From Thiomicrorhabdus aquaedulcis (GTDB lineage Bacteria > Pseudomonadota > Gammaproteobacteria > Thiomicrospirales > Thiomicrospiraceae): a stretch of 64,000 nt of DNA. Positions 2,948-61,167 of the stretch are shown piece after piece. The translations under genes were made by a program, and so were the position numbers. Where the stretch lies: the NCBI RefSeq assembly GCF_004001325.1, contig NZ_AP018722.1:1426001-1490000 (forward strand). Direction: 5' to 3'. Below the pieces are notes generated by a model. The model worked only from the letters and a program-made list of their open reading frames with translations. It was not told the origin of the DNA and ran no database searches. Every line of letters begins with the position of its first letter. The stretch's first letter is position 1.

Positions 2948-3703
2948 TTAACCGCTAAAAAAATTCCACGGGTGTAACCAGTTTTTAATAATGGCTTGGC
3001 ACTCGAGCGTTAAAAACTCGGCACCTTCGTTGGGCGCTAGTACAAACTCGTAAGATTGGTTAAAAAGACTAAATTGCATGGCGTACGCATGCAAATACCC
3101 GCGATCACTTAGCTGAGCCGATAGGCGCTCGGCATAACGTAGGTCGCCCAAAATGGGCGCGGCTAAACTTTTTAAGGCCACTCTAATTTGGTGCGTTTTG
3201 CCAGTAATGGGTTTAACCAAAAACAGGCGTTTTTTGGGGGCGATTAACGACGTAACAAACTGTGTAATGGCCGGGTTTTGCAACGTCTTAGCCAGTTTGT
3301 AGCTGCCCCGACGGGCGCTGAGCATATCGCCCTTAACCCAACCTTGTTTTTTGTTGGGTTTTTTATCGCTAATAGCCAAATAGTATTTTTGCACTTCATG
3401 CGCGGCAAACATCAAGCCAAACCGTTGTGCGGCCGGCTTATTAAGTGCAAACACTACCAGTCCCGAGGTCATTTTGTCTAACCGATGCACCGGATAAAGT
3501 TCAGGACAATTTAATTGTTGTTTTACCAACACCACCAGGCCTGGTTGCCTTGCATTGTCAAGCGTGGCATCTTCAGGCAGTAAATCGGGCGGTATCAATG
3601 CTTGCGACACGTCTTGTTGCACCACGCACTCACTGTGAAAATTTAATCCGCTGGGCTTGTCAACCACCACAAAATCGGCATTTTTAAAAATAATGCTCAG
3701 CAT
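2948..3703 (-). CDS. RluA-family pseudouridine synthase, single-domain
   Basis: A 251-residue pseudouridine synthase of the RluA family. The catalytic motif HRLDKMTSGL is present with the nucleophilic Asp at residue 76, and the KPSGL motif lies near residue 17. It lacks the N-terminal S4 RNA-binding domain found in RluD (compare the gene at 11994-13037). That places it with the short TruC/RluA-like group acting on rRNA or tRNA, and the exact target uridine cannot be read from the sequence. The iterated palindrome at 3534 is inside the gene and is read QPGLV at residues 53-57, in a variable stretch between conserved motifs. Confidence 0.88.
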   Translation of the reverse strand: MLSIIFKNADFVVVDKPSGLNFHSECVVQQDVSQALIPPDLLPEDATLDNARQPGLVVLVKQQLNCPELYPVHRLDKMTSGLVVFALNKPAAQRFGLMFAAHEVQKYYLAISDKKPNKKQGWVKGDMLSARRGSYKLAKTLQNPAITQFVTSLIAPKKRLFLVKPITGKTHQIRVALKSLAAPILGDLRYAERLSAQLSDRGYLHAYAMQFSLFNQSYEFVLAPNEGAEFLTLECQAIIKNWLHPWNFFSG

Positions 3704-3805
3704 GGTTGTTTTAACATCGCTATTGTAACCTCTTGGTGCAACGCTTAAAAAAGAACATTATACTGCAACACCCTAGCTTCTTTAACGCCATTTATGGGAA
3801 TTGCC

Positions 3806-5020
3806 ATGCCACTAAAGATTCAAGTTCACAGTCAAATCAGTCAAATTGACGCCCAACAATGGGATGCGCTGGTAGAAAACCACCAGCCATTTTTAAGCCA
3901 TGCGTTTTTGCATGCGCTGGAGCAACACCATTGCGCCGCGCCAAGGTACGGTTGGCATCCTCAACACCTGGCGATTTACCATCAAAACACCTTAATCGCC
4001 GCCATGCCGCTGTACGAAAAACACAACAGTTACGGTGAATTTGTCTTTGACCAGGCCTGGTCAAACGCGTGGACGCAAATGGGGTTGGCGTATTTTCCTA
4101 AATTGGTTAGCGCTGTGCCTTACAGCCCTGTGAGTGGTCAACGTTTTTTGGTACGAAATGTGGCGTTACAGAATATGCCGATTAATCAAACTGAGGATTA
4201 CTCGGTCGAATTTTTAACGCAAACCTTATGGAACGCCGCACTTGAGCTTGCGCAACAACACGCCTACAGTGGATTGCACCTTTTATTTGCCCACGCCGCG
4301 CAACAAACTTGGTTGGCGCAACAGGTGGCCGGCCAACCATTTGTTTATACTCGCCACGATTGTCATTTTCATTGGTTTAACCAAAACTACACTGGCTTTG
4401 ACGATTTTTTGGCGCAATTAACGCCCAAAAAACGTAAGAACATTCGCCAAGAGCGTCAAAGTGTGGCGCGTGCGGGTGTTACTTTTAGGCGGCTAAACGG
4501 CCACACCGCCACCGCTCAAGACTGGGAGCATTTTGGCTATTTTTACACCAAAACCTTTACCGAAAAATGGAGTACGCCTACCTTAAACACCGAATTTTTT
4601 AAAGCCGTCGCACGGGCTTTACCCAACAACGTCTTGTTGGTATTGGCCGATAAAAACGGCCAGTGCATTGCCGGTTCGTTAATGTATTACAGCGATACCA
4701 CACTGTTTGGCCGTCATTGGGGCTGTATTGAAGAGGTCAACCATCTGCATTTTGAAGCGTGCTATTACCAGGGCATTGAGTTTGCCATTGAACGCGGCTT
4801 GCAGGTGTTTGAACCTGGTGCGGGGGGCGAGCATAAAATAGCCCGTGGCTTTGTACCCGTTGAAACACAATCCACCCACTGGCTTAATCCATCACAGATT
4901 CCACCCACTCTGCAAGCCGATCTTGATCGTGGATTACAAGGTTTTATTAAACAAGAACAGCAACAAAATCAAAACTATATAGCCCAGTGTCAAACACACA
5001 ATCCGTATAAAACAACATAA
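3806..5020 (+). CDS. GNAT / FemAB-like acetyltransferase (COG3146 family)
   Basis: A protein of about 404 residues of the COG3146 (DUF482) group, which has a GNAT-like fold related to peptidoglycan FemAB proteins. Segments such as FLAQLTPKKRKNIRQERQ, the run near GSLMYYSDTTLFGRHWGC and FEPGAGGEHKIARGF are typical of the family. I place the start at the ATG at 3806, because GGGA sits 6 bases before it, although an ATG at 3794 is also in frame. The substrate is unknown. The gene reads toward rppH and the two share a perfect-palindrome terminator. The palindrome copy at 4050 is read as DQAW within the gene. Confidence 0.8.
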   Translation: MPLKIQVHSQISQIDAQQWDALVENHQPFLSHAFLHALEQHHCAAPRYGWHPQHLAIYHQNTLIAAMPLYEKHNSYGEFVFDQAWSNAWTQMGLAYFPKLVSAVPYSPVSGQRFLVRNVALQNMPINQTEDYSVEFLTQTLWNAALELAQQHAYSGLHLLFAHAAQQTWLAQQVAGQPFVYTRHDCHFHWFNQNYTGFDDFLAQLTPKKRKNIRQERQSVARAGVTFRRLNGHTATAQDWEHFGYFYTKTFTEKWSTPTLNTEFFKAVARALPNNVLLVLADKNGQCIAGSLMYYSDTTLFGRHWGCIEEVNHLHFEACYYQGIEFAIERGLQVFEPGAGGEHKIARGFVPVETQSTHWLNPSQIPPTLQADLDRGLQGFIKQEQQQNQNYIAQCQTHNPYKTT

Positions 5021-5041
5021 AGCATTACAAATTCAAAACAA

Positions 5042-5075
5042 AAAGGCCTTTGACCAGGCCTGGTCAAAGGCCTTT
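5042..5075. terminator. Bidirectional terminator built on the iterated palindrome
   Basis: A perfect 34-bp palindrome whose core is ACCAGGCCTGGT (5053-5064), extended on both sides by AAAGGCCTTTG / CAAAGGCCTTT. It lies between the convergent acetyltransferase and rppH genes, 20 bases after one stop and 11 after the other. Runs of A precede it and T/A-rich sequence follows, as expected for intrinsic termination on both strands. Confidence 0.85.
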
Positions 5076-5086
5076 AAACGCCTTAA

Positions 5087-5575
5087 CTACCTTGGCAACC
5101 AAAACTTTTTAAGCGCGCCTTCTAAATCGGTCAGCGCTTGATGGTATACCGCTTGTTTAAAACTAACCACCTCTTGCACTGGACGCCAATAATCAACCCA
5201 CGCCCACGATTCAAACTCGGGCGAATCGTGCAGGCCTAAATTAATGCGCTCAACGTCGCCTTCAAACCCCAGCATAAACCAAATTTGTTTTTGGCCAATG
5301 CACACAGGTTGACTGTAATGCCGAATAAGGTGTTTGGGTAAATCGTAACTTAACCAGCCATTGGTGCGGCCTAAAACACGCACGTCAGAAGGCTCTAAAC
5401 CCACTTCTTCTTTTAACTCTCTAAAAACCGCTTGTTGCGGGGTTTCATTTTCACGAATGCCGCCTTGTGGAAACTGCCAGGCATCCTGTTGAATTCGTTT
5501 ACCCCAAAACAGCTTGCCCTCTTTATTGACAATAATAATGCCCACATTATGTCGGTAACCGTCTTGATCGATCAT
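5087..5575 (-). CDS. rppH: RNA pyrophosphohydrolase RppH
   Basis: Nudix hydrolase of 162 residues that removes pyrophosphate from the 5' triphosphate of RNA and so starts mRNA decay. It opens MIDQDGYRHNVGIII, as RppH does, and has the Nudix box at residues 38-60. Within the box, RELKEEVG carries the metal-binding glutamates. The WQFPQGG segment before the box is also typical. The length agrees with the E. coli protein (about 176). It stands alone between a convergent acetyltransferase gene and a 298-base spacer, so it probably has its own promoter in that spacer. Confidence 0.95.
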   Translation of the reverse strand: MIDQDGYRHNVGIIIVNKEGKLFWGKRIQQDAWQFPQGGIRENETPQQAVFRELKEEVGLEPSDVRVLGRTNGWLSYDLPKHLIRHYSQPVCIGQKQIWFMLGFEGDVERINLGLHDSPEFESWAWVDYWRPVQEVVSFKQAVYHQALTDLEGALKKFWLPR

Positions 5576-11199: not shown

Positions 11200-11994
11200 T
11201 TAACGCTCCAACCAAATCAGTGAGGCGATGCGTCCGGTTTGCCCAGAACGACGATAAGAAAAAAACTGCGACTCATCGCGGTAAGTGCATAAATCACCGC
11301 CGTACACAAAAGAGACACCTAACTGATTTAATTCATACTTGACCAGGCCTGGTAAGTCGGCTAAATATTTTTTGTGTAAATGACTGTCTACAGACAACGG
11401 CTTAAAAAAGCCTGCATTGAGCTCTGACGTTGCCACAAAAACCGCTCTAACCTCTTCACCCACCTCAAACGACTGTGCACCAATCGCCGGACCTATCCAC
11501 GCCATTAAACGTTCTGGGCTTTCTGGTAAAGCCTCTACGGACTGACGCACAATACCCGAAGCCAAGCCTTTCCAGCCCGCATGAATCGCACACACCAACG
11601 TGCCTGCCAAATTAGTGATTAAAATAGGCAAGCAATCGGCCGTCAGCACCACCGCCACTCGACCCGATTCTTGCGTCCAAGAAGCATCCGCAATAGGCGG
11701 ATTATCTTGAGTCGCTAAAGAGTCAAGACAAACAAGCTCGACAGTATGTTGCTGATTAAGCCAAACGGGTTGGCTGGATAAGCCAGCCCGATTGACCAAT
11801 TGCTGTCGATTGGCTAAAACGGCGTTTAAATCGTCGCCTACATGCGTGGCCAAATTAAACCCATCAAATGGCGGCAAGCTTACTCCGCCCAAACGTGTAG
11901 TACACAGCGCTTTTACACCAATAGGTGCCGGCCAATCTGGGTAGATAAAATGGCTGTCAGACTGATTATTAGGCTGACTATTACGCTCTAACAT
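11200..11994 (-). CDS. pgeF: Peptidoglycan editing factor PgeF (YfiH, laccase-domain protein)
   Basis: A 264-residue protein of the YfiH/DUF152 family, with family motifs VVLTADCLPILI, AIHAGWKGLASGIV and MAWIGPAIGAQSFEVGEEV. The Cys and His residues in these segments are the metal-site ligands of the family. Members act on UDP-MurNAc intermediates or as purine nucleoside phosphorylases, and the older polyphenol-oxidase label is less certain. The start overlaps the last base of rluD (ATG/TGA type overlap at 11994), so the two genes are translationally coupled, as in many gammaproteobacteria. The palindrome at 11342 is read as LPGLV. Confidence 0.92.
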   Translation of the reverse strand: MLERNSQPNNQSDSHFIYPDWPAPIGVKALCTTRLGGVSLPPFDGFNLATHVGDDLNAVLANRQQLVNRAGLSSQPVWLNQQHTVELVCLDSLATQDNPPIADASWTQESGRVAVVLTADCLPILITNLAGTLVCAIHAGWKGLASGIVRQSVEALPESPERLMAWIGPAIGAQSFEVGEEVRAVFVATSELNAGFFKPLSVDSHLHKKYLADLPGLVKYELNQLGVSFVYGGDLCTYRDESQFFSYRRSGQTGRIASLIWLER

Positions 11995-14195: not shown

Positions 14196-15845
14196 CTATT
14201 CAGTATATCGACTGGTAATGGGATAGCGGCGGTCTTTACCAAACGCTCGTTGGGTGATTTTTACCCCAGGGGCGGCTTGGCGACGCTTGTATTCACTACG
14301 GTCAATTAAGCGCACCACCTTGTTAACTTCCTCGGCATTAAAGCCCATATCAATCATCTGCTGGGGCGTTTTATCCTGCCTAACATACGCTTTAATCATC
14401 GCATCCAACACAGCATAATCGGGCAGTGAATCTTGATCCACCTGATCTGGACGCAATTCGGCGGAAGGCGCGCGTTCAATCACGCGTTCGGGAATCACGT
14501 TAGACAACCCATTCCGATAGTGCGCTAGGCGATACACCAAGGTTTTTGGCACGTCTTTTAACGGTGAAAATCCACCGACCATGTCGCCGTATAAAGTTGA
14601 ATACCCAACCGCTACTTCGCTTTTATTGCTGGTGGCCAGTACCATTTTGCCGGTTTTATTGGATAACGCCATCAATAAAGTACCACGAATTCTGGCTTGT
14701 AAATTTTCTTCGGTTACATCGTTTTCTAGCCCTATAAAACTCGGTGCCAACGCAGTTTCAAAACTGTTAAATAGGTTTTCAATGGGAATACTTTGATAGT
14801 CCACCCCCATGGTTTTGGCTTGTAAAGCGGCGTCGTCTTGGCTAATTTGTGCAGTATATTTAAACGGCATCATAACCGCACTGACGTTATTGGCACCAAG
14901 CGCGTCAACGGCTAGCGCTAAAGTAAGTGCCGAATCAATGCCTCCGGACAACCCCAATAACACACCAGGAAAACCATTTTTTTGCACATAGTCTTTTATG
15001 CCTAAGGTTAAGGCTTGATAGACACGCGCTTCACTTTCATATAACGGGGCTACCAGGCCTGGTAACACGCTCACACCATGCTGAGACTTAACCACTTTAA
15101 CCGCCGTTAACGCCGTTTTAAACTCCAGACTTTGTACCTGAACAATACCCTGTGCGTCCATGGCAAACGAACCGCCGTCAAACACCAACTCGTCTTGCCC
15201 ACCCACTTGGTTAACATACAAAATAGGTGCGTTAATTTCGGCCACGCGACGCGTTAGAGTATTTAAACGGTCTTGATGCTTTTCATCTGAAAACGGCGAG
15301 GCGTTTAAGGTAAGCAGAACATCCGCACCCGCTTCTTTGGCTTGGGTAGCGGGGGCAAATTTCCAAATGTCTTCGCAAATTAACACCCCAAATCGAACGC
15401 CCTTATGCTCAACCACACAAGGTCGATGGCCGGCCGAAAAATACCGTTGCTCGTCAAACACACTGTAATTGGGCAGATGTTGCTTCATGTAACTGGCTTG
15501 AATTGCGCCTTTTTCAATCCACGCAGCCATATTAAAGCGCTCACCCAAAGCATCCTGCATGGGATAACCCACCACCACCACGACGTCATTAACATGCTGA
15601 CAAATCTGCAACAAAGCTCTATCAATTTGTGGGTACAAGCCACCGCGTAATAACAAATCTTCTGGTGGATAACCGGTAAGAGTCATTTCGGGAAACAGCA
15701 CAATATCAGCATTGTGCTGTAACTTGGCCTGCTTGGCCGACTCAATCACGAGTTGCGTGTTGCCTGCAATGTCGCCGACCACGGGATCAATTTGCGCCAT
15801 GACCACGGTAACCGTTGGAGAAGGTTGGCTCGAAGACTGGCTCAT
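14196..15845 (-). CDS. nadE: Glutamine-dependent NAD+ synthetase
   Basis: A 549-residue enzyme that amidates nicotinate adenine dinucleotide using ammonia from glutamine. The N-terminal half is a nitrilase-type glutaminase domain (FPEMTLTGYPPEDLL with catalytic Glu53, and GVLICEDIW with the catalytic Cys). The C-terminal half is the synthetase, with the ATP pyrophosphatase loop LGLSGGIDSAL near residue 300 and ATSNKSEVAVGYSTLYGDM. The palindrome at 15052 is read LPGLVAPL in the linker between the two domains. It is monocistronic, with a small inverted-repeat element just upstream of its start. Confidence 0.96.
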   Translation of the reverse strand: MSQSSSQPSPTVTVVMAQIDPVVGDIAGNTQLVIESAKQAKLQHNADIVLFPEMTLTGYPPEDLLLRGGLYPQIDRALLQICQHVNDVVVVVGYPMQDALGERFNMAAWIEKGAIQASYMKQHLPNYSVFDEQRYFSAGHRPCVVEHKGVRFGVLICEDIWKFAPATQAKEAGADVLLTLNASPFSDEKHQDRLNTLTRRVAEINAPILYVNQVGGQDELVFDGGSFAMDAQGIVQVQSLEFKTALTAVKVVKSQHGVSVLPGLVAPLYESEARVYQALTLGIKDYVQKNGFPGVLLGLSGGIDSALTLALAVDALGANNVSAVMMPFKYTAQISQDDAALQAKTMGVDYQSIPIENLFNSFETALAPSFIGLENDVTEENLQARIRGTLLMALSNKTGKMVLATSNKSEVAVGYSTLYGDMVGGFSPLKDVPKTLVYRLAHYRNGLSNVIPERVIERAPSAELRPDQVDQDSLPDYAVLDAMIKAYVRQDKTPQQMIDMGFNAEEVNKVVRLIDRSEYKRRQAAPGVKITQRAFGKDRRYPITSRYTE

Positions 15846-18170: not shown

Positions 18171-18443
18171 GTGCGAACAATTATATTTTTACTGCTGGTT
18201 ATACTGGCGTTTTTAGTCATTCGCTTTACCCTTAATCGGGTCATTGCAATTCGCAAAAAAAACCAGGAACTGGACTCACCAGGCCTGGTTAACGTGCAAA
18301 AAAATCTGGTCACCTGTGTGGTTTGCGGCCTTAACCTGCCCGAAGAAGAGGCCATTATTGAAACCTTAAACGGCGATGAATTTGCATTTTGCTGCGCTAA
18401 ACATCAACAAGACTTTCATAAATCGGCCATAAAAGTTCAATAA
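18171..18443 (+). CDS. PP0621-family small membrane protein with cysteine cluster
   Basis: About 90 residues: an N-terminal membrane segment (IIFLLLVILAFLVIRF), a basic stretch, then two cysteine pairs (TCVVCGLNLP and FCCAKH) that look like a metal-binding knuckle in the cytoplasm. This matches the PP0621 family, whose function is not known. I choose the GTG at 18171, preceded by AAGG, over an ATG at 18123, because the membrane segment then sits at the very start. The palindrome at 18278 is read SPGLV in the linker between the membrane segment and the cysteine domain. Confidence 0.7.
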   Translation: MRTIIFLLLVILAFLVIRFTLNRVIAIRKKNQELDSPGLVNVQKNLVTCVVCGLNLPEEEAIIETLNGDEFAFCCAKHQQDFHKSAIKVQ

Positions 18444-21368: not shown

Positions 21369-22721
21369 ATGTCTTGTGTCACGCCCACGTTGCTCATTAT
21401 TGGTTATGTCTGGCCCGAACCCAACTCATCGGCGGCCGGCACGCGGATGCTGCAATTAATTAAGCAGTTTTTAACCCACGGTTACGGCGTGCATTTTGCC
21501 AGCCCAGCCAAATTAGGGGAACACAAAGCCGACCTTACAAGCCTGGGGGTACAAGAATACAATATTGAGCTCAACCATTCCAGCTTTGACCTGTTTATTG
21601 CAGCATTACAACCCAACCTAGTGCTGTTTGATCGTTTTATGATGGAAGAGCAATTTGGTTGGCGCGTTGCTCAATACGCCCCCAATGCGCTACGCATTCT
21701 TAATACCGAAGACTTACACTGCTTGCGCGAGGTGCGCCAGCAGTTGGTTAAAAGCTATTTAACGTCGTCCAAAAGCAACGGCGCTTGCACACTTGATGAA
21801 ATTGCTTTGCACGACGTGGCTGTGCTTAAAGCAAAGTTGCAGCAAACCGACTTGGCCAAACGTGAAATAGCCGCTATTTTTAGAAGCGATTTAACCTTGA
21901 TGATTTCTGAATTTGAAATGGATCTGCTGGTAAATCACTTTAACGTGCCCATAACGCACCTGCATTACCTGCCCTTTTTATACGAGCAAGATGCTGGTGG
22001 ATTACCCGCTGCTTGGGTGCCAACGTTTGCGCAACGCATTGGCTTTGTAAGCATTGGCAATTTTAGACACGCCCCAAATTGGGACGCGGTGCTGTGGCTC
22101 AAGCAGCAAATTTGGCCGCACATTCGCAAGCAACTCCCCCAAGCTGAATGTTTCATTTATGGTGCGTATCCACCCAAAAAAGCCACCGAACTGCACAACC
22201 CAAAACAAGGGTTTTACGTTAAAGGCTGGGTCGATGATGCATTTGCCGCATTAAGCCAAGCGCGCGTGTGTTTAGCGCCTTTGCGGTTTGGCGCAGGCAT
22301 TAAAGGTAAATTAGCCGAAGCGATGTTGTGCGGCACGCCCAGTGTCACCACCTCGATTGGCGCTGAATCGATGCTGCTTACCACCTGGCCTGGTCACATT
22401 GCCAACAACGATGAGGCGTTTGCGCGTTTGGCGGTACAGCTGCATCAAGATGACCAGGCCTGGTTAAGTGCACAAACCGTTGGGTTTGATACCGTAGCGC
22501 AGCGCTATCAAATGCCACGCCCCGAAATATCCAGTCTTTTTGACACACTCAAGCGCATCAACCAACAACTGGATGCTCATCGCTCATCTAATTTTATGGG
22601 CAGCGTACTCAATCATCATCACCACAAAAGCACGCAATACATGGCGCAGTGGATTGAGGTTAAAAATCAACTGGCACAAGCCAATGCACCCATCAACCCA
22701 ATACAACAGGCTATTTTATGA
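21369..22721 (+). CDS. Glycosyltransferase, GT4-like
   Basis: A 450-residue GT-B type glycosyltransferase. The N-terminal domain starts with a Rossmann strand (TLLIIGYVWPEPNSSAAGTR). The C-terminal domain includes IGFVSIGNFRHAPNWDAV, FYVKGWVDDAFAALSQARV, the donor-binding GAGIKGKLAEAMLCGTPSVTT, and a conserved Glu in that motif. The acceptor and sugar are unknown; surface polysaccharide or protein glycosylation is likely. It overlaps the next small gene by four bases (ATGA), so they are coupled. A TATAAT at 21331-21336 lies 33 bases before the start. The palindrome at 22453 is read as DDQAWL near the C-terminus. Confidence 0.85.
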   Translation: MSCVTPTLLIIGYVWPEPNSSAAGTRMLQLIKQFLTHGYGVHFASPAKLGEHKADLTSLGVQEYNIELNHSSFDLFIAALQPNLVLFDRFMMEEQFGWRVAQYAPNALRILNTEDLHCLREVRQQLVKSYLTSSKSNGACTLDEIALHDVAVLKAKLQQTDLAKREIAAIFRSDLTLMISEFEMDLLVNHFNVPITHLHYLPFLYEQDAGGLPAAWVPTFAQRIGFVSIGNFRHAPNWDAVLWLKQQIWPHIRKQLPQAECFIYGAYPPKKATELHNPKQGFYVKGWVDDAFAALSQARVCLAPLRFGAGIKGKLAEAMLCGTPSVTTSIGAESMLLTTWPGHIANNDEAFARLAVQLHQDDQAWLSAQTVGFDTVAQRYQMPRPEISSLFDTLKRINQQLDAHRSSNFMGSVLNHHHHKSTQYMAQWIEVKNQLAQANAPINPIQQAIL

Positions 22722-23842: not shown

Positions 23843-26800
23843 CTATAAGGCCTTAAGTTTTTGCTCTAGTCGCGCAATCGATATGGGCATTAAGGTTTTC
23901 ATCGGTTGCGCAAAGAGTGAAATTCGTAACTCTTCAATTAACCAACGTAGTTCCACCAGGCCTGGTTGATTGTAATACGCGGGCTCATTGGCCAATGCGT
24001 TGTAGGCGTTTAACACCGGCATCAACTGACGAATCGCCAACTGATCTTTACTCGGGTCTAAATCAATTTTTTGCAAGCGGATTTGAATCGCTTTTAAATA
24101 ACGTGGAATCTGCTTAAACCACTCATCCGGCACGGTGCGAACAAAATCTTTGGCGACCAACGCATCTAACTGCGCCTTAATATCGGCCACCGAAGCCAAC
24201 CAGCGCGGATTAACCTTACCACGCACCTGCTTACCAATGATTTGCGAGAGGGTAAAAATCTCGTTCACGTGCGCGCTAATCATCAAAGCGGTTTCAATCC
24301 AATGCAAACGTACCTGCTCCAACATGGTCTCAAACCCAGCTTGGGTGCGAATCCTGTGCGGCTGCCCCGCCGCTTGATGAACCAATTGCGCCAACGCTCT
24401 ATCAATGACCTGCTGGGTTAAATCTTGGCAAGTGCCAAACGGGGCGTAACACAAACAGGCTTTTTGAAGGGGCAATTTTTTTTGCAGATACTTCTCTTTA
24501 TCGGCCAATAAGCGTTCAATTAACGCCAATACGGCTTGACCATGGGCGTGTTGCGATGCGCTCAAATCGCCCATCAACGTCAACTTAATGCGCCCGTCTT
24601 GACACTGCAATGCCGGGTAAGCTTGCATCAACGCACCTTGGCTTTTAATGCTTTGGGTGTCGGCTAAATCACCAAAATCCCAGCGTTCTATAAACTCAGA
24701 CTTTGGCTCTGACGCTAAAGCTAAAGCGCCTTTTTTATCAAGGCCTTCAACAGCCTCAGCAGGTGTTTGCTTTAACCGTTGTTGATGCTGATGTTGATGT
24801 TGTTTAATTTTGGCTTCAACCAAATGCAAGTAATCTTGTTTTAACCGCTCTAAACTTTGGCCTTCAGCCAGGGGTTTGCCCTTATCGTCTTCTAACACAA
24901 AATAGGCTTGCAGATAATTGGGCAGCACCACCTCGCTCACATCGTGCAAAGAAACTTTTTGATGCCCCAGATGAACACGACGATTTAACGCCCACACCAA
25001 CTGATGCAAATAGCGTTCTGGCTGGCCATTGGCGGCCATTTTCTGCGGCGACATCTCAGCCAATATCAAATCGGCATACTGCGGTGCGGGAATAAACTGT
25101 TTTCTAAGTTGTTTTGGTAATGCCTTAATATAAAAAGCAGTTTTCTCTTTGAGCAGGCCTGGTGTCAACCAGTCAAAATCGGCTTGATGCACCCGATTTA
25201 AACTCGATAACGGCAGGTGATACACCAAACCATCGCGCGCTTTATCGGGTTCAAAATGGTAATTAACCGCTAAATTAAGCTGGTTTTTAATCTGCACTTG
25301 ATCGGGATAATCGGCCAACCACTGCGCATTGGCCGACTGCTTCATTAAATCGGCTTGGGTTAAATACAATGCTTTTAGTTGCGGCGAATTTTGCTGTTCA
25401 AGTGTTTTTAACCAGGTTTCAAACGCTGGCTTGTTGTAGATGTGTTTGGGAACGCGCTGGGCATAAAACTCGTACAAAACATCGTCGTCCACCAAAAAAT
25501 CGGGGCGACGTAATTTGCTTTCAAGCCGCTCAATGTCGGCAATTAAAGCTTGATTGTGCTTCCAAAACGGCGCACGACTTTCGAGCTGCCCCTCGGCCAA
25601 GCCGTGACGCAAAAATAACTTGTGCGCCTCAGCCGGATTAATAGGACCGTAATTGCACAAGCGGCGATTTACAATGGGCAAACCGTATAACGTAATGGAT
25701 TCGTACGCTCCCACTTGACCGGTTTTTTTCTGCCAGTGCGCGTCGCTGTAGGTGTGTTTAATAAGGTGCTTGGCCAAACTTTCGACCCAGTTTACGTCCA
25801 TTACCGCGTTATTGCGTGCGTACAGTTTGCTGGTTTCAACCAACTCTCCGGCCAACATCCATTTGGGTTTGCGTTTGTAAAGGCTCGAACTTGGGTGAAT
25901 AAACAGCTTAGTGGCGCGTGCGCCCAGATAGGATTTTTCGTCGTCGCGCATTGCCACGTTACCCAACAAACCCGCCAGCAGTGAGCGATGTACCGCTTGA
26001 GAGTGCAAATCGCTTAAACGTTCTTTGAGTTGATTGTCTTGTTTAATCTCTTCAAACAGGTGTAAATCACCCACTTTTAAACCAATGCGTTTTAAGTTTT
26101 GTTCGAGCTGCACGGTCAGTTCGTGCCACTCTTTCATGCGAATGTACGATAAAAAATTGGTTTTACAGAGTTTACGCAGTTTAGCTTGGGTTAAATGACG
26201 GCGCTGCCCCTCGTAAAAATGCCAAAGATTTAAATAAAACAAAAAGTCCGAACGCTCGTCTTCAAATAATTTATGAGCGATGCGCGCCGCTTGTTGGGTG
26301 GTTTGATTGATGTCGCGCGGGTCTTGAATGCTTAAGGCGGCGGCAATCACAATCAGCTCGGCCAATACGCCGTTTTTTTGCGCTTCAATTACCATCTTGC
26401 CAATGCTTGGGTCTACCGGCAACTTGGCGATTTGCCGACCTTGAGGGGTTAAGCGTCGCTGGTCGTCCAACGCGCCCAGCTCATGCAATTGGCGGTAACC
26501 GTCGTTAATCGATTTGTCGTTGGGCGCTTCAATAAACGGAAAATGCTTTACCTCACCCAAATCGAGTTGCGCCATGGTTAAGATAATGGACGCCAAAGAG
26601 GTTCGGTGAATTTCGGGATCGGTAAAATCGGCGCGGGCGGTAAAATCGTCTTCGCTGTAAAGTCGAATGCAAATCCCCTCGCTCACGCGTCCGCAACGAC
26701 CTTTACGCTGATTGGCCGACGCCTTAGAAATTTTTTCGACCGGCAGACGCTGAATTTTATTGCGCACGCTGTAACGGCTGATTCTGACCAGGCCTGGGTC

Positions 26801-27955
26801 AATCACATATTTAATGCCCGGCACAGTCAGCGAGGTTTCGGCCACGTTGGTGCTTAAAATAACGCGGCGTTTTTGTGAGGTTTGAAACACCTTTTGCTGC
26901 TCATTCATCGACAAACGGGCGTACAACGGCACAATTTCGGTGTTTTTTAACTGCGCTTTACGCAACGCTTCGGCGGTTTCTTTAATATCGCGCTCGCCCA
27001 CCTGAAACACCAGCACATCGCCAAACGGGTCAGAATGCGACAACTCTTCTAACGCGCTTAAAATACCGTCGCTTATCTCTTGTTCTATCAAATTACCGCC
27101 GTCGTCCTCAAAGCTGGACAAGGGGCGATAACGCAGCTCAACCGGATAGGTGCGCCCCGACACTTCAACCACCGGCGGGCGCACACCATTAAAGGTAAAA
27201 TGTTCGGCAAAACGCTGGGTATCAATGGTGGCCGAGGTAATAATGACTTTTAAGTCAGGGCGTTTGGGCAACAGCTGTTTTAAAATACCCAGTAAAAAGT
27301 CGATGTTAATGCTGCGTTCGTGCGCCTCGTCAATAATAATGGTGTCGTATTGGCTTAGGTAACGGTCGTTTTGCACCTCGGCCAACAAAATTCCGTCGGT
27401 CATCACCTTAATGACGCTTTGCGCGTGCACCTGATCCATAAAGCGCACCTGATACCCCACCAACTCGCCCACGTTTGAACCCAGCTCTTGCGCAATGCGC
27501 TCGGACACACTGCGTGCCGCCAAACGGCGTGGCTGGGTACAGCCAATGCGGCCAAACACGCCGCGCCCCGCTTCTAAACAAATTTTAGGAATCTGCGTGG
27601 TTTTTCCCGAACCCGTTTCACCGGCAATCACCACCACTTGGTGCTGGCGTATGAGCGCCATTAATTCATCTCTTTTGGCTGCCACCGGCAGAGCGTCGTC
27701 GTAGGTAATGCTAGGAATCGCTTGCTGATTAAGTTGAGCGGCCGCTTGCGAGGCCTGCACACGGGCTTGCCAATCTAACCAGGCCTGGTCAGTTGGTTTT
27801 AACGTCGCAAAACTGAGTTTGTTTAACGCTTGCGTAAGCCGAAATCGGTCTTTGCACAAACACATAGCCAGTTGCTGGGTACGAAATGTGGCGTCGGTAA
27901 ACAATCGTTCTAAATCTAAGAAGTGTGTTGGCAATAAGGGTGAGAAATTTGGCAT
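23843..27955 (-). CDS. hrpA: ATP-dependent RNA helicase HrpA
   Basis: A 1370-residue DEAH-box helicase, close to the usual 1300 residues. Motif I is AGETGSGKTTQIPKI, motif II DEAH lies in IIIDEAHERSINIDFL, motif III is SATID, and motif VI is QRKGRCGRVSEG. After the helicase core come the HA2, OB-fold and long DUF3418 domains that define HrpA. HrpA resolves stalled ribosomes and handles mRNA. The gene is single and divergent from the persulfide dioxygenase gene. Four palindrome sites lie in it: exact ones at 23955 (QPGLVELRW) and 27778 (TDQAWLDW), and near copies at 25152 and 26787. Confidence 0.96.
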   Translation of the reverse strand: MPNFSPLLPTHFLDLERLFTDATFRTQQLAMCLCKDRFRLTQALNKLSFATLKPTDQAWLDWQARVQASQAAAQLNQQAIPSITYDDALPVAAKRDELMALIRQHQVVVIAGETGSGKTTQIPKICLEAGRGVFGRIGCTQPRRLAARSVSERIAQELGSNVGELVGYQVRFMDQVHAQSVIKVMTDGILLAEVQNDRYLSQYDTIIIDEAHERSINIDFLLGILKQLLPKRPDLKVIITSATIDTQRFAEHFTFNGVRPPVVEVSGRTYPVELRYRPLSSFEDDGGNLIEQEISDGILSALEELSHSDPFGDVLVFQVGERDIKETAEALRKAQLKNTEIVPLYARLSMNEQQKVFQTSQKRRVILSTNVAETSLTVPGIKYVIDPGLVRISRYSVRNKIQRLPVEKISKASANQRKGRCGRVSEGICIRLYSEDDFTARADFTDPEIHRTSLASIILTMAQLDLGEVKHFPFIEAPNDKSINDGYRQLHELGALDDQRRLTPQGRQIAKLPVDPSIGKMVIEAQKNGVLAELIVIAAALSIQDPRDINQTTQQAARIAHKLFEDERSDFLFYLNLWHFYEGQRRHLTQAKLRKLCKTNFLSYIRMKEWHELTVQLEQNLKRIGLKVGDLHLFEEIKQDNQLKERLSDLHSQAVHRSLLAGLLGNVAMRDDEKSYLGARATKLFIHPSSSLYKRKPKWMLAGELVETSKLYARNNAVMDVNWVESLAKHLIKHTYSDAHWQKKTGQVGAYESITLYGLPIVNRRLCNYGPINPAEAHKLFLRHGLAEGQLESRAPFWKHNQALIADIERLESKLRRPDFLVDDDVLYEFYAQRVPKHIYNKPAFETWLKTLEQQNSPQLKALYLTQADLMKQSANAQWLADYPDQVQIKNQLNLAVNYHFEPDKARDGLVYHLPLSSLNRVHQADFDWLTPGLLKEKTAFYIKALPKQLRKQFIPAPQYADLILAEMSPQKMAANGQPERYLHQLVWALNRRVHLGHQKVSLHDVSEVVLPNYLQAYFVLEDDKGKPLAEGQSLERLKQDYLHLVEAKIKQHQHQHQQRLKQTPAEAVEGLDKKGALALASEPKSEFIERWDFGDLADTQSIKSQGALMQAYPALQCQDGRIKLTLMGDLSASQHAHGQAVLALIERLLADKEKYLQKKLPLQKACLCYAPFGTCQDLTQQVIDRALAQLVHQAAGQPHRIRTQAGFETMLEQVRLHWIETALMISAHVNEIFTLSQIIGKQVRGKVNPRWLASVADIKAQLDALVAKDFVRTVPDEWFKQIPRYLKAIQIRLQKIDLDPSKDQLAIRQLMPVLNAYNALANEPAYYNQPGLVELRWLIEELRISLFAQPMKTLMPISIARLEQKLKAL

Positions 27956-29951: not shown

Positions 29952-30048
29952 CGTCTGAGTTTTTTGGGTTAAAACATTTAAAATGAAGATCCGTTTTAAA
30001 ACCAAATTCAGTATTTAAAAACAGTTCAAAATAAAACAACCAGGCCTG
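29946..30048 (+). repeat. Direct repeat copy A (start of cassette 1)
   Basis: About 103 bp beginning TTAAAGCGTCTGAGTTTT. It is repeated with about a dozen differences at 31282-31386. Both copies begin exactly at a cassette boundary and end in the iterated palindrome (exact here, one mismatch in copy B). Confidence 0.85.
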
Positions 30049-30050
30049 GT
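30039..30050. repeat. Iterated palindrome ACCAGGCCTGGT inside an integron cassette
   Basis: Exact copy within the non-coding cassette 1. The equivalent position in the second repeat copy (31376-31387) ends in C instead of T. Its presence on a cassette ties the motif to sequence gained by the integron or shows that it spread there later. Confidence 0.85.
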
Positions 30051-33690: not shown

Positions 33691-34743
33691 CTAAAAATGG
33701 CTAAAACCCGTTTTTTTGTCTGTTAATTCATAGGGCTTTTGGTCTTTTAGCAAGGTTATTTTTGCTGGTTGCGTGCTTTGCACATCCTCTGTTTTAATGG
33801 TTTGAGTTGTTTTAGTTGCCTGGTTTATTTTGCCAATCACGGTTAAGCGCACGCCTAGGGCTTGGGCTTTTGCGGCTATTTCGTCCCAATATTGGGGGGC
33901 TACGCTTAAGCAGAGTTGATAGTCGTCGCCGCCGCTGAGTACCAATGACCAATCGTTGGTGCGTGTAATGTAGGTTTGCATGGCGCTTGAAATGGGCAGT
34001 TGGTCAAGATTAATACTGGCTTCTAAAGCGGAATTTTGGGCTTTGGATGAGGCGTTTAAAATGTGACCAAAATCGGCCAATAGGCCATCCGAAACATCAA
34101 TGGCGGCTGAGGCAAGGCCGTGCAAATTCGCACCCAGAGCCAACTGCGGTTGCGGACGATTAAGCGCGGCAAGTACGGCCGTTTGCTCGGTTTGACTTAG
34201 GGCGGCCAACACCGTTTTGTTAAGGGTTTGCAGTGCCAGTTTTAACCCTAATGCGCCCTCGCCCAACACGCCGGTAACGCAGATTAAATCACCCGCATGC
34301 GCGCCGGAGCGCAACACGGCTTGACCATTTGGCACCCAGCCTTGCGCGGTCACCGTAATGGTCAGCGGACCTTTGGTGGTGTCTCCACCAATAAGCGGAA
34401 TATTGTGGTTATGTGCCAAGGCTTTTAGTCCGAGGGCAAATTCACTTAACCAGGCCTGGTCAACGTGTGGCAAGGTGAGCGCCAGTGAATAAAAACCGGC
34501 TTTGGCTCCCATAGCGGCCAAATCGCTTAAATTGACCGCCAGCGATTTCCAGCCAATGTCGTACGCGCTGGCAAACTCTGCAAAATGCACACCCGCCACC
34601 AAGGTGTCGGTGACCACCACCAGTTGATTATGTGCCGGCACAGTTAATACCGCGCCGTCGTCACCAATGCCCAAATCACCCAGACCTAGTGGCTGCGACA
34701 ACGGCTTAAAATAGGCATCAATTAAATCAAATTCTTGCGACAT
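33691..34743 (-). CDS. thiL: Thiamine-monophosphate kinase
   Basis: A 350-residue enzyme that makes thiamine diphosphate from the monophosphate. Typical segments are IGDDGAVL, DTLVAGVHF, SLAVNLSDLAAMGA, LIGGDTTKGPLTITVTAQG, AAIDVSDGLLADFGHI and SGGDDYQL. It is the last gene of the nrdR-rib-nusB-thiL row; the usual downstream pgpA is missing and the mobile island starts instead. A hairpin between nusB and thiL may separate its expression. The palindrome at 34449 is read as VDQAWLSEF, in a stretch that is not part of the conserved motifs. Confidence 0.95.
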   Translation of the reverse strand: MSQEFDLIDAYFKPLSQPLGLGDLGIGDDGAVLTVPAHNQLVVVTDTLVAGVHFAEFASAYDIGWKSLAVNLSDLAAMGAKAGFYSLALTLPHVDQAWLSEFALGLKALAHNHNIPLIGGDTTKGPLTITVTAQGWVPNGQAVLRSGAHAGDLICVTGVLGEGALGLKLALQTLNKTVLAALSQTEQTAVLAALNRPQPQLALGANLHGLASAAIDVSDGLLADFGHILNASSKAQNSALEASINLDQLPISSAMQTYITRTNDWSLVLSGGDDYQLCLSVAPQYWDEIAAKAQALGVRLTVIGKINQATKTTQTIKTEDVQSTQPAKITLLKDQKPYELTDKKTGFSHF

Positions 34744-37658: not shown

Positions 37659-38864
37659 TTAGTTACAAACCGTTTGATTAGCAACGGGCTTTAAAACCAG
37701 GTGAATATCCTCACCAATTTGATTGACCGAGTCAAACGATAACTGAATTTTTTGTGCCATCTTAACCAGGCCTGGTAACACCATTAAAGGCTTGGCGGCA
37801 TCGCCCAATAAGCTGGGAGCCATAAAACAGTGTAACTCGTCCACCAAACCCGCTTGCACAAATGCGCCACTTAGCACCGCACCGGCTTCAACCAGTACAT
37901 CGTTAATGTGCTCTGCCTTGGCCAAATAGCGCAACACGGCGTGTAAATTTAACCTACCAGCAGGCGCGCCTTCATGCTCATCTCGCGCATCGCACGCTAT
38001 GGCGACCACTTCGCATCCTGCTTGTTGCAAGTGCAATGCAACCTGGGGTTGCTGCAACAGCGCCGCGTGCGTGGTCATAATTAGCGTGCGCCCTGGCAGA
38101 CTTAATAGTTTGGCGTTAAGGGGCGTGCGTAATGCACTGTCTAACACCACCCGCAACGGCTGGGCGCTGTCTGGCGTTAAGTTGAGTGCGTGCAAAGTTT
38201 GCTCGGGCAAGCGTACGTTTAAACTTGGGTTGTCGGCCAAAACAGTGTTTACACCGGTGATAAGCGCACCGGCAAACGCGCGCATTTTATGCACTTCTAA
38301 ACGCGACGCTTCGCCGGTAATCCACTGGCTTTCACCATTGGCCATGGCAGTGCGCCCATCCAAACTGGCCGCCAATTTTACCCGCACATAAGGCAATTGG
38401 TGCTGCATGCGTTTTAAAAACCCTAGGTTTAAGGCCTCAGCTTGCGCCGCTCCCAATCCCACGTGCACCGCAATACCCGCCTGTTGCAAAATATGCACGC
38501 CCTTGCCCGCCACCAACGGATTAGGGTCAAGCATGGCCACCACAACTTTGGCCACCCCTGCCTCCACTAACCCCGTGGCGCAAGGCGGTGTGCGCCCAAA
38601 GTGCGCGCACGGCTCTAACGTTACATACGCGGTGGCACCTTGTGCCGCATCACCGGCAGCAGCAAGCGCCAACCGTTCGGCGTGCGGCTCACCGGCTTTT
38701 ACATGACTGCCTTGCCCTACCACTTGCCCGTTGTTAACCAACACACAGCCAACGGCAGGATTGGGCTTAGTCGAATACGCGCCGCGCTGTGCCAGCGATA
38801 ACGCTAGGTTCATGTAGTGCACGTCTTCGGTGTTAATCGTAAAGTCGCTAATAATATTATTCAC
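37659..38864 (-). CDS. ribD: Bifunctional riboflavin deaminase/reductase RibD
   Basis: About 401 residues. The N-terminal zinc deaminase domain has [19 protein letters not shown] and [15 protein letters not shown], and the C-terminal reductase domain has [20 protein letters not shown] and [22 protein letters not shown] place the start at a GTG at 38864, which overlaps the nrdR stop region by 8 bases, because family members begin about 10-20 residues before [11 protein letters not shown]. An ATG at 38813 or further upstream codons are possible. No FMN riboswitch is seen upstream of the cluster. The palindrome at 37765 is read LPGLVKMAQ. Confidence 0.92.
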
Positions 38865-39330
38865 TGGTTTTAGCGGTGGTGGCTTTAACCAATTTTTCAA
38901 TTTCTTCTCTAAACGCATTTACGTCTTGAAAAGAGCGATACACCGAAGCAAAGCGCACATAAGCCACTTGGTCTAGCTCGCGCAACGCGTCCATAACCCA
39001 CTCACCCAATTGCGATGACGGAATCTCACGCACCCCTTCGGCCATCAACCGTTTGGTCATTTGACTGGCCATTTGGTCAATCGCTTCACTGGCAACGGGA
39101 CGTTTTTCAAGAGCTTTAATAAGACCACGACGAATTTTATCTTCGTCAAAACGTTCGCGGTTGCCGTCACTTTTAATGACCCTTGGCAGAGCCAATTCAG
39201 CCGACTCGTAGGTGGTAAAACGCTCTCCGCATTGCAAACATTCACGCCGTCTGCGCACTTGCACGCCTTCGGTGGCCAAGCGAGAGTCGACCACTTTGGT
39301 GTCTGGCGTATTACAAAACGGACAATGCAT
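38857..39330 (-). CDS. nrdR: Transcriptional repressor NrdR
   Basis: A 157-residue repressor of ribonucleotide reductase genes. The zinc ribbon [15 protein letters not shown] ... [16 protein letters not shown] is at residues 3-47, followed by the ATP-cone domain ([19 protein letters not shown]). It heads the riboflavin cluster, and its end overlaps ribD. It probably also lies downstream of glyA in transcription direction, but a strong terminator separates the two. Confidence 0.96.
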
Positions 39331-39396: not shown

Positions 39397-39416
39397 TTTA
39401 ACCAGGCCTGGTTAAA
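39397..39416. repeat. Iterated palindrome, extended to 20 bp
   Basis: A perfect 20-bp palindrome (TTTAACCAGG / CCTGGTTAAA) around the exact core at 39401-39412, 20 bases from the next copy. Paired copies between glyA and nrdR are unique in the window. Confidence 0.9.
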
Positions 39417-39435: not shown

Positions 39436-39467
39436 AATAAAAACCACCAGGCCTGGTGGTTTTTATT
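39436..39467. terminator. Terminator formed by the iterated palindrome, after glyA
   Basis: A perfect 32-bp palindrome (arms AATAAAAACCACCAGG and complement) with core ACCAGGCCTGGT at 39446-39457. On the minus strand it follows the glyA stop by about 24 bases, and its arm ends in TTTTTATT, like an intrinsic terminator. Confidence 0.85.
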
Positions 39468-44200: not shown

Positions 44201-44216
44201 TAACCAGGCCTGGTTA
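44201..44216. repeat. Iterated palindrome, 16-bp intergenic copy, with a degenerate neighbour
   Basis: TAACCAGG / CCTGGTTA just after the DsrE-like gene. A one-mismatch copy (ACCAGTCCTGGT) follows at 44235-44246. Then comes TTTGCATGTGTG and GGCTAAAAATGAGG near 44260-44300, similar to parts of the MITE at 2303-2461. Confidence 0.8.
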
Positions 44217-44311
44217 AACAGGTTTTTAGACCTTACCAGTCCTGGTCAATGTGTTTTTAGTCCTTTGCATGTGTGAACGCACGGCTAAAAATGAGGCATA
44301 AAAATAAGACA

Positions 44312-52690: not shown

Positions 52691-53164
52691 ATGAGCGTTA
52701 CGCCCGGTCAAATCGTACCAAGTTTTTTATTAAGTGCCACATCTCAACGCACGATTACTCAAGAAAATTTTCTTGGCAAATTTACCGTTTTGTATTTTTA
52801 CCCCAAAGACAGCACCCCTGGATGCACCACAGAAGGTTTGGAGTTTGCACAGTTACACGATGAATTTTTAGCGCTTAATGCACAAATATTAGGGGTGTCT
52901 TTAGACAGCCTTACCCGTCACGCAAACTTTAAAAACAAACACAGCTTTCCATTTGATTTAATCAGTGATCCAGAGGCTTTGTTATGCAAAATTTTTGGGG
53001 TTTATCAACTCAAAAAGAATTTTGGCAAAGAATATATGGGCATTGTTAGAAGTACCTTTTTAATAAATCCGCAAGGCCAACTTGACCAGGCCTGGTTAAA
53101 CGTTAAAGTTGCCGGACACGCTCAAATGGTTTTACAAACGCTTAAACACACTGCATCACAATAA
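52691..53164 (+). CDS. bcp: Peroxiredoxin, Bcp/PrxQ family
   Basis: A 157-residue thiol peroxidase. The peroxidatic Cys is in YPKDSTPGCTTEGLEFAQL near residue 45. The second Cys that PrxQ proteins often have five residues later is absent. The only other Cys is in EALLCKIFGVY near residue 99, so it may act as a 1-Cys enzyme or use that distant Cys. CAGGAG lies about 9 bases before the ATG. The palindrome at 53085 is read LDQAWLNV near the C-terminus. It precedes phoH-like on the same strand with a 68-base gap. Confidence 0.93.
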   Translation: MSVTPGQIVPSFLLSATSQRTITQENFLGKFTVLYFYPKDSTPGCTTEGLEFAQLHDEFLALNAQILGVSLDSLTRHANFKNKHSFPFDLISDPEALLCKIFGVYQLKKNFGKEYMGIVRSTFLINPQGQLDQAWLNVKVAGHAQMVLQTLKHTASQ

Positions 53165-55786: not shown

Positions 55787-57109
55787 TTAAATGTCAAACT
55801 TGTTACAAGAAGTGGCCTTTACGCGAGTAGATGCATCGCCTAAATTATTAAAAATAAAGGGTTTGGCCAAGCGTGGCACCCCATCTCGACCGTTTAAGGC
55901 TTGCATCATTAACCATTTCTTAACGGGCAACAATCGATTAGCCAAGGGTAAAAACCCGTTAAGCAGGCGCGTTTTAAGAGCGGATTGCTGATTAAACAAC
56001 CAATCAAACCCTTCCATAGAACGCTGAACCAACGCATTGTCACCGCGGCGAGCGCGTTCGTATTGGCGCAATACCGCAAAATTTCCCCACGATTTACCAT
56101 GCGCTTTGGCCTCAACAATTACGTCCAGTAACACGGCCGCGTCCAGCAAACCCAAATTAACGCCCTGACCCGCTTGCGGATGAATGGTGTGCGCGGCATC
56201 GCCCACGAGGGCTAAATTGGGTTTTACATAATGCAATGCATGACGTCGCACCAAGGCAAAAGCAATACGTTGCCCTACTTCAAGCACCTTGCCCAAACGA
56301 TGGTCTGAGGCGATTTCAATGTTCCGAGCTAATTCTTCATCGGACAAACTCAACGCCCAAGCCATTTTGTGCGTGGGCAAGTACCAAGCAATTGAACTCA
56401 TGTTATTGCCCATGGCCAAATACGCAAAGGGCCCTGCGGCTTGATAGCGCTGCCAACAAGTGTCTTGATGGGACAACTCGGTTTTAACACAACCTACCAC
56501 CGCGCATTGCTGGTAGTCATGGGTGTCTAAGCCAATATGTGCCAAGGCTCTAACCTTAGAAAACGCACCGTCTGCGCCCACAATTAACGGCGTAACCACC
56601 TTACCTAACCCATCTAAAGTTAACCAGGCCTGGTCATCTTTAAACTCCAAAGATTCAAGAGCTTGGTTTAACGCAATGTGCACGTATTCACAGCCCTTTA
56701 GCTGCTCCCACAATGCGGCCTGCACCACATCGTTTTCAACCACGTGTCCCAAATTAGCTTCACCCACATCAGCGGCAGAAAAATGCACTTGACCCACACT
56801 GGCCTCATCCCAAACGTGCATGGCACCAAACGCATGACAACGTCGTGCTTCAATTCCGCCCCAAGCACCCAGGTTACGCAAAATGTTTTCGGACGCACGC
56901 GTCAACGCACTTACTCTTGGCTGTAAAGGCAACGAGGCATGCCAGTCGGTGGTCACCGCCTGCTTTTCTAACAACAGTACCTTAAAGCCTTGTTGCCCCA
57001 AGCCCAAAGCCAGCACCGAGCCGACCATGCCGCCACCCACAACCACAACATCAAACGATGCTGCAGAATCGTTTATGGCTTTATTATTGGTGTCTTGAGC
57101 GTGCATCAT
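55787..57109 (-). CDS. Ubiquinone FAD-dependent hydroxylase, UbiI/VisC-type
   Basis: A 440-residue flavoprotein monooxygenase of the UbiH/UbiF/UbiI/COQ6 family. It has the dinucleotide-binding motif VVVGGGMVGSVLALGLG near residue 24, the FAD-binding NLALVGDAAHTIHPQAGQGV and NLGLLDAAVLLDV. It follows ubiH by 2 bases, matching the pepP-ubiH-ubiI order of E. coli, so a role in C5 hydroxylation of the quinone ring is likely though UbiF-type specificity is not excluded. The palindrome at 56623 is read DDQAWLTL. Confidence 0.9.
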   Translation of the reverse strand: MMHAQDTNNKAINDSAASFDVVVVGGGMVGSVLALGLGQQGFKVLLLEKQAVTTDWHASLPLQPRVSALTRASENILRNLGAWGGIEARRCHAFGAMHVWDEASVGQVHFSAADVGEANLGHVVENDVVQAALWEQLKGCEYVHIALNQALESLEFKDDQAWLTLDGLGKVVTPLIVGADGAFSKVRALAHIGLDTHDYQQCAVVGCVKTELSHQDTCWQRYQAAGPFAYLAMGNNMSSIAWYLPTHKMAWALSLSDEELARNIEIASDHRLGKVLEVGQRIAFALVRRHALHYVKPNLALVGDAAHTIHPQAGQGVNLGLLDAAVLLDVIVEAKAHGKSWGNFAVLRQYERARRGDNALVQRSMEGFDWLFNQQSALKTRLLNGFLPLANRLLPVKKWLMMQALNGRDGVPRLAKPFIFNNLGDASTRVKATSCNKFDI

Positions 57110-61155: not shown

Positions 61156-61167
61156 ACCAGGCCTGGT
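61156..61167. repeat. Iterated palindrome directly after 6S RNA
   Basis: Exact ACCAGGCCTGGT 4 bases after the 6S closing stem. It could act as a transcript end hairpin, though no T run follows. Confidence 0.85.

Follow-up and report, generated by a model that had tools for sequence, protein, structure and literature searches.

Two long palindromes in the window, by which we mean the whole 64-kb stretch of DNA analysed here, are very probably intrinsic terminators, as predicted from their sequence (with a weak plus direction at 5042-5075), and both carry the 12-mer ACCAGGCCTGGT at their apex. The 2.54-Mb genome to which the window belongs (G000) has 718 copies of the 12-mer, and the explanation that we consider likely, taken as a whole, is that the terminators at both sites hold an apical copy of an iterated motif that would be under genome-wide pressure, as an uptake-like signal. 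A sequence-only reading of the window had described the two sites as perfect palindromes of 34 and 32 bp around ACCAGGCCTGGT, lying soon after stop codons; both palindromes are exact at their coordinates, and the distances from the stop codons (11-23 bp) confirm their placement. They are the only perfect palindromes in the window longer than 20 bp, and the next longest, at 39397-39416 and 4046-4065 (20 bp each), are centred on the 12-mer too. The features at the two sites are as follows.

5042-5075, unstranded: 34-bp perfect palindrome, predicted intrinsic terminator, whose T-tract is good only for the gene on the minus strand
5053-5064, unstranded: 12-mer ACCAGGCCTGGT, core of the 34-bp palindrome (from sequence)
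5033-5044, minus strand: T-rich tail 3' of the hairpin core (from sequence)
3794-5020, plus strand: FemAB_like (PF04339) gene, convergent neighbour (gene call, domain match)
5087-5575, minus strand: NUDIX (PF00293) gene, likely client of the terminator at 5042-5075 (gene call, domain match)
39436-39467, unstranded: 32-bp perfect palindrome, predicted glyA terminator, T-tracts on both strands (hairpin-plus-tail score)
39446-39457, unstranded: 12-mer, apical part of the glyA hairpin (from sequence)
39397-39416, unstranded: second 12-mer copy in the glyA-nrdR gap, 20-bp palindrome with a poor T-tract, weakly terminator-like by the scan tool and not by the hairpin-plus-tail score
39491-40762, minus strand: glyA (SHMT, PF00464; gene call, domain match)
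38857-39330, minus strand: nrdR (Zn_ribbon_NrdR and ATP-cone), downstream of glyA (gene call, domain match)

The palindrome at 5042-5075 lies within a 66-bp gap between convergent genes, 21 bp past the stop codon of the FemAB-like gene and 11 bp past that of the NUDIX gene, and the palindrome at 39436-39467 lies 23 bp past the stop codon of glyA, in the glyA-nrdR gap. Their predicted folds have stems of 15 and 14 bp, respectively, with a loop of 4 bases in both. Folding z-scores are -5.8 and -5.6 on the two strands of 5042-5075 and -3.4 and -3.8 on those of 39436-39467, where 2 and 0 of 200 shuffles, respectively, gave equally good folds. The palindrome at 5042-5075 has a good T-tract on its minus strand (TTTTTGTTTTG) but a weak one on its plus strand (TTTAAACG); the hairpin-plus-tail score and the terminator scan tool alike call a terminator there on the minus strand only. 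The glyA site is called on both strands by the hairpin-plus-tail score, in which the stem is allowed to stop before the T-tract, and is absent from the list of the scan tool, because its T-tract pairs with the A-run. A search of the window against Rfam gave nothing at gathering thresholds.

The iteration of the 12-mer is far above chance and specific to a lineage, as is that of uptake sequences. Its reversed control is absent from the genome, and each of eight 12-bp palindromes of the same composition has 0 copies in an 864-kb sample of G000 that holds 248 copies of ACCAGGCCTGGT. The window contains 20 exact copies and 36 matches with at most two mismatches, where dinucleotide shuffles average 1.85 (maximum 5 among 100). 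At least one copy is found in 41 of the 62 genomes of the family and at least 80 copies in 27 of them, with many congeners holding 0-2 (the order-level search covers the same 62 genomes); in the same class outside the family, the maximum is 5 copies among 271 genomes. Judging by record titles, an extended form of the motif occurs in Thiomicrospira, Hydrogenovibrio, Thiomicrorhabdus and gammaproteobacterial MAGs; Hydrogenovibrio halophilus, Thiomicrospira microaerophila and Thiomicrorhabdus arctica are among the carriers named. Most one-mismatch copies (77 of 86) deviate at the two outer positions, so that the strict core is CAGGCCTG. The flanks are also conserved (TTRACCAGGCCTGGTYAA, with a preference for AT farther out), in genic copies likewise, and the consensus is a symmetric 18 bp with TTR/YAA flanks. 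Copies are spaced more evenly than in a Poisson distribution (mean 5.7 per 20 kb, variance/mean 0.46, in 40 stretches), a property whose standing as a hallmark of uptake sequences is contested in the literature (PMC1939737). The 96,830-bp replicon C2 (L193-L195) has 4 copies in 60 kb, about one-quarter of the chromosomal density. The window copies other than those listed above are the following; the sequence-only reading had counted 7 of the 20 as intergenic, and independent gene calls give the same number.

1445-1456, unstranded: intergenic copy, tandem gap, unextended
30039-30050, unstranded: intergenic copy, divergent gap, unextended
44201-44216, unstranded: intergenic copy, convergent gap, 16-bp palindrome, not terminator-like
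61156-61167, unstranded: intergenic copy, tandem gap, unextended
3534-3545, unstranded: genic copy
4046-4065, unstranded: genic copy (12-mer at 4050) in a 20-bp palindrome
11342-11353, unstranded: genic copy
15051-15064, unstranded: genic copy (12-mer at 15052), 14-bp palindrome
18278-18289, unstranded: genic copy
22453-22464, unstranded: genic copy
23955-23966, unstranded: genic copy
27778-27789, unstranded: genic copy
34449-34460, unstranded: genic copy
37765-37776, unstranded: genic copy
53085-53096, unstranded: genic copy
56623-56634, unstranded: genic copy
59453-59468, unstranded: genic copy (12-mer at 59455), 16-bp palindrome

At 44201-44246, the exact copy at 44203 shares one convergent gap with a one-mismatch copy, ACCAGTCCTGGT, at 44235, with a spacing of 20 bp.

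Relatives bear variants of the motif that share its core. Stretches of 4.8-40 kb were surveyed in 22 genomes (20 of them with at most 38 copies of the 12-mer), and then 140-320 kb in four. The G026 dialect, ACCGGCCGGT, has 121 copies in 320 kb and is densest in convergent gaps (3.1 per kb versus 0.23 in genes); four of the copies are terminator-like, that is, they lie at the centre of a hairpin whose stem is longer than the motif and which is accompanied by a T-tract (3 of 12 copies in convergent gaps and 1 of 64 in genes, with 0 of 36 in tandem and 0 of 9 in divergent gaps). The G047 dialect is CAGGCCTG with different outer bases, found 64 times in 160 kb, with 3 terminator-like copies. In G022 the dialect is the directional AAACTCAACAGGCCGGGT, with its core 30 times in 140 kb and two inverted pairs among the copies listed. 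All three show an intergenic excess like that of the 12-mer. Species dialects around a common core are thus present, as among uptake sequences. No dialect was detected in G051, where CAGGCCTG occurs once in 280 kb, and no clear motif was visible in 20-40 kb of several other relatives.

We propose that a genome-wide pressure would lead the motif to be made repeatedly and to be retained wherever the sequence permits, gene ends being presumably the most tolerant places. A terminator loop would need few changes to become the motif and, conversely, the addition of a GC clamp and a T-tract would suffice to turn the motif into a terminator. The pressure itself may come from a DNA-uptake machinery that recognises self DNA, as it does through the uptake sequences of Neisseriaceae and Pasteurellaceae. 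By analogy with those families, we put the chances that the motif is an uptake-sequence-like recognition signal at about even. This reading fits the copy number, the dialects, the even spacing, the co-use in terminators, the low density on C2 and the presence of ComEC and ComEA, and the analogy gains from the dialects, the even spacing and one orthologous terminator made of an inverted pair. ComEC over the cut-off and ComEA at E<=0.001 are found together in 26 of the 27 genomes with at least 80 copies, and also in motif-free genomes (G024, G028, G030, G040, G042 and G051); since they are present in both groups, the two proteins were rejected as discriminators of motif-rich from motif-free genomes. 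In the dialect carrier G022, the ComEC matches fall in two open frames of the same contig, separated by about 37 kb. G050, which is 99% complete, holds the 12-mer once and has no ComEC match over the cut-off; joint loss of the motif and ComEC is possible there.

The same properties might instead describe an operator, the 12-mer with its TTR/YAA flanks being bound by an abundant protein with a role in the nucleoid, in segregation or in regulation, and sited for least disturbance. A symmetric 18-bp consensus with AT-rich flanks, genic copies included, together with the strict core and the even spacing, is what such a site could look like; however, the motif differs between species in dialects that include a directional form, and some close relatives are nearly free of it (0 to 2 copies), so that we regard the operator as unlikely. 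We find it quite unlikely that DNA methylation and mismatch repair generate and maintain the palindrome, as has been proposed for HIP1 in cyanobacteria (PMC4390886), and that terminators pick it up by chance. In common with HIP1 as described by Elhai (2015; PMC4390886), the motif is a highly iterated, GC-rich palindrome, has alternate palindromes in some relatives and deviates mainly at the outer bases; genic gain by substitution would also suit this mechanism. Unlike HIP1 as that source presents it (PMC4390886), the motif is in excess at gene ends, has AT-rich flanks conserved past the palindrome and one directional dialect, and occurs in 11 genomes, of the 27 with at least 80 copies, that have no C5 (PF00145) or PF01555 match at E<=0.001. 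Moreover, G000 itself has no PF01555 match, and its only C5 methyltransferase adjoins an EcoO109I-type endonuclease. The recognition sequence of EcoO109I, which we take to be RGGNCCY, does not match AGGCCT. Across the 62 genomes, PF00145 and PF01555 showed no association with the motif, and the methyltransferase model was rejected; a C5 or PF01555-type methyltransferase is not supported as the cause, as judged from the two families searched. At this locus in G000 (L092 445-2532; C1 near 743 kb), the endonuclease belongs to PF14511 and the adjoining C5 methyltransferase has a MerR-like N-terminal domain.

How far the motif is a terminator part was examined in the 864-kb sample of G000 (41 stretches including the window, 87% coding, with genes called by our own script). 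Its 248 copies divide into 113 genic, 74 tandem, 42 convergent and 14 divergent copies and 5 at stretch ends, or 3.7 copies per kb in convergent gaps, 1.1 in tandem gaps, 0.56 in divergent gaps and 0.15 in genes. Perfect palindromes of at least 22 bp around the 12-mer number 8 in convergent, 13 in tandem and 1 in divergent gaps and 0 in genes, and the difference in extension between intergenic and genic copies that the sequence-only reading had proposed to look for is evident, with at least 24 bp reached by 7 of 42 copies in convergent gaps and 10 of 74 in tandem gaps, and by none of the 14 divergent or 113 genic ones. Among the copies in convergent gaps 10 of 42 are terminator-like, among those in tandem gaps 10 of 74 (7 in sense, 3 in antisense only), in divergent gaps 1 of 14, in genes 2 of 113 and at stretch ends 0 of 5. 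Downstream of genes the proportion (20 of 116) differs from that within genes (2 of 113; Fisher p = 6e-5), and not significantly from that in divergent gaps (1 of 14; p = 0.47). Terminators are predicted at 108 of 540 gene ends, and the exact 12-mer is found in 22 of the 108, a count in which one convergent hairpin may be entered for both its genes. At positions 11-18 from the centre, the two arms pair at 0.39 in 3' regions versus 0.32 with arms swapped between sites, and at 0.27 versus 0.26 for genic copies. A typical terminator-like copy reads AAAAAACCC-TTTGACCAGGCCTGGTCAAA-GGGTTTTTT, in which the inner TTTG/CAAA belongs to the motif and the GC clamp and T-tract belong to the terminator. Of the other perfect palindromes of at least 12 bp, the terminator-like ones are 2 of 8 in convergent, 2 of 46 in tandem and 0 of 11 in divergent gaps and 2 of 214 in genes, and the similar proportion in convergent gaps indicates that the 10 of 42 is due to the place and is not special to the 12-mer. 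In 3' gaps, palindromes of 26-32 bp around the 12-mer also occur without a T-tract (L086 5894, L053 1988, L067 12048, L059 15760 and L061 19446); these may be ex-terminators, RNA-stability hairpins or something else.

Thus, the view of the 12-mer as a terminator core is supported by sequence at both window sites and for the 20 downstream copies, and fails for the other 96 of 116; most copies do not resemble stop signals. Nor does a dual use in termination account for the intergenic enrichment, as had been suggested from the window. When the terminator-like copies are removed, the excess persists, at 2.8 per kb in convergent gaps (32 copies), 1.0 in tandem gaps (64) and 0.5 in divergent gaps (13), versus 0.15 in genes (111), and termination was rejected as its cause. 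It is therefore very unlikely that the motif is mainly a terminator part whose work in termination produced the excess. The peak density in convergent gaps and the terminator-like copies in 3' regions would suit that explanation, but the 96 copies of another kind show the same gradient, 113 of the 248 copies are genic, and the T-tracts in tandem gaps have no clear sense bias (15 antisense and 17 sense among 74).

The glyA gene end offers a view of the motif and the terminator apart. We compared it in 30 genomes, of which 23 were assignable, with a stem of the type AACCACC...GGTGG; the seven left out are G054, G055, G059 and G061, in which glyA lies close to nrdR and such a hairpin is missing, G038, in which none is clear, G026, whose hairpin and dialect are different, and G041, which has 38 copies and a loop that is ambiguous. 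A loop that completes CAGGCCTG is present in 10 of the 12 genomes of that dialect (G000, G023, G025, G027, G031, G032, G046, G047, G048 and G049) versus 0 of 11 others; G021 and G034 are motif-rich, yet their loops are imperfect. Because the genomes are related, the Fisher p of 7e-5 for this association, uncorrected for kinship, is no true probability. Among the 11 others, the loop is AAATCT in 4, ATATCT in 3 and different in 4, and the seven AAATCT and ATATCT hairpins are equal in length to the 12-mer hairpin, so that the motif was gained or lost here via base substitutions in the loop. The palindrome had been described as recruited into terminators. The 12-mer does sit inside the glyA hairpin, but a like stem is present without the motif in motif-poor relatives, which means that the hairpin it occupies is found also where the 12-mer is absent. 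In the GlyA tree most of the motif-rich species of the genus are grouped and the deep order is unsettled, leaving the direction of the loop change unproven.

Other gene ends show how seldom a motif-bearing terminator is shared. Among 26 orthologous gene-end pairs for terminator-like copies, the partner has no predicted terminator in 13, a motif-free terminator in 11 and a motif-bearing one in 2, namely the same 12-mer in G061 and an own-dialect inverted pair in G022. In the latter case, the G022 ortholog (78% identity) of the gene at L070 17085 ends in AAAAACTCAACAGGCCGGGTAGGAAATGATTTCTACCCGGCCTGTTGAGTTTTT, in which two inverted copies of that genome's own motif are followed by a T-tail. In G008 and G029, the hairpins at the ends corresponding to the L053 17120 terminator are unrelated to it; in G026, the ortholog of the NUDIX gene has a motif-free terminator hairpin, CCCCACTGAAGTGGGGTTTTT. 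No NUDIX partner was found beside the FemAB-like gene within the fetched flank at 29 other loci, so that the gap of 5042-5075 is not shared there; 3' of the FemAB-like gene, G046, G047, G049, G052 and G053 have a motif-free hairpin with a T-tract, as judged by eye and unscored. It is hardly credible that ordinary terminators and a common word met by chance, or that a REP- or MITE-like element brought its own hairpin: a longer inverted-repeat element does lie 3' of the FemAB-like gene in G008 and G013, and the rate of terminator-like cases among other palindromes in convergent gaps (2 of 8) is similar, but the exact 12-mer is in 22 of 108 terminators while the eight palindromes of equal composition have no copies at all, and coding ortholog pairs that are gap-free at the motif (25 of 30), with the seven motif-poor glyA hairpins of the same length, indicate that the motif does not represent an inserted unit, on which ground a mobile repeat was rejected.

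Terminators built on iterated uptake sequences are already known. According to Kingsford et al. (2007; PMC1852404), about 55% of terminators in Neisseria and 17-29% in Pasteurellaceae contain uptake sequences, arranged as an inverted pair with a T-tail. The motif described here resembles Neisseria DUS and Pasteurellaceae USS, as they appear in that source, in being iterated hundreds-fold, in lying mostly outside terminators and in occupying a fraction of them (22 of 108 here), and the inverted pair with a T-tail in G022 follows their arrangement (PMC1852404). It differs from them in that a single palindromic copy forms the hairpin, whereas DUS and USS need a closely spaced inverted pair (PMC1852404), as well as in belonging to a different lineage and in being known here from sequence alone. 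Relatives that bear variants around a common core recall the DUS dialects of Neisseriaceae (Frye et al., 2013; PMC3630211); compared with the dialects described there, those found here are three, come from genome samples only and are in some cases palindromic. Iterated uptake signals are documented in Neisseriaceae and Pasteurellaceae in the sources consulted (PMC12616744; PMC1939737). In the open-access literature searched, we found no mention of ACCAGGCCTGGT itself, no report of an uptake sequence or signal in Thiomicrospira or of an overrepresented palindrome in Thiomicrospira crunogena, no uptake-sequence term in publications naming the genera of the family, and no account of a single palindromic motif that forms terminators in this family and has dialects. 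Possibly, with a chance that we place a little short of even, the Thiomicrospira/Hydrogenovibrio/Thiomicrorhabdus family has DNA-uptake signals of its own and makes up a third independent lineage of this kind, in which palindromic signals turn into terminators singly and loops are rewritten by point changes as dialects turn over. Since some dialects are perfect palindromes, one uptake signal alone could become a terminator under this proposal. If true, free-living sulfur oxidisers would provide an independent case for studying how uptake signals arise and why they gather at gene ends, and a system for asking how an uptake signal and a terminator merge into one element. With its like hairpins and species-specific loops, the glyA series makes the order of events testable.

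Repeats of other kinds were met in the survey of relatives. The word AAATCTGCCAGGTTGGG of G008 and G013 was rejected as a dialect, being one arm of the longer inverted-repeat element mentioned above. In this element (L186 in G008, L191 in G013), which lies 3' of the FemAB-like stop codon and spans about 75-90 bp, an inverted CCCAACCTGG(T/C)AGATTTT pair surrounds a GC-rich stem-loop; it is MITE- or REP-like, and its arm recurs in the stretches of both genomes. In the 280 kb of G051 (L107, L123 and L213-L224), CTCGCTGCCGCC and words overlapping it were counted about 98 times and probably belong to one repetitive gene. Finally, a set of 12-mers that occurs 28 times in 20 kb of G007 (L108, C1:1-20000) was read as a CRISPR array.
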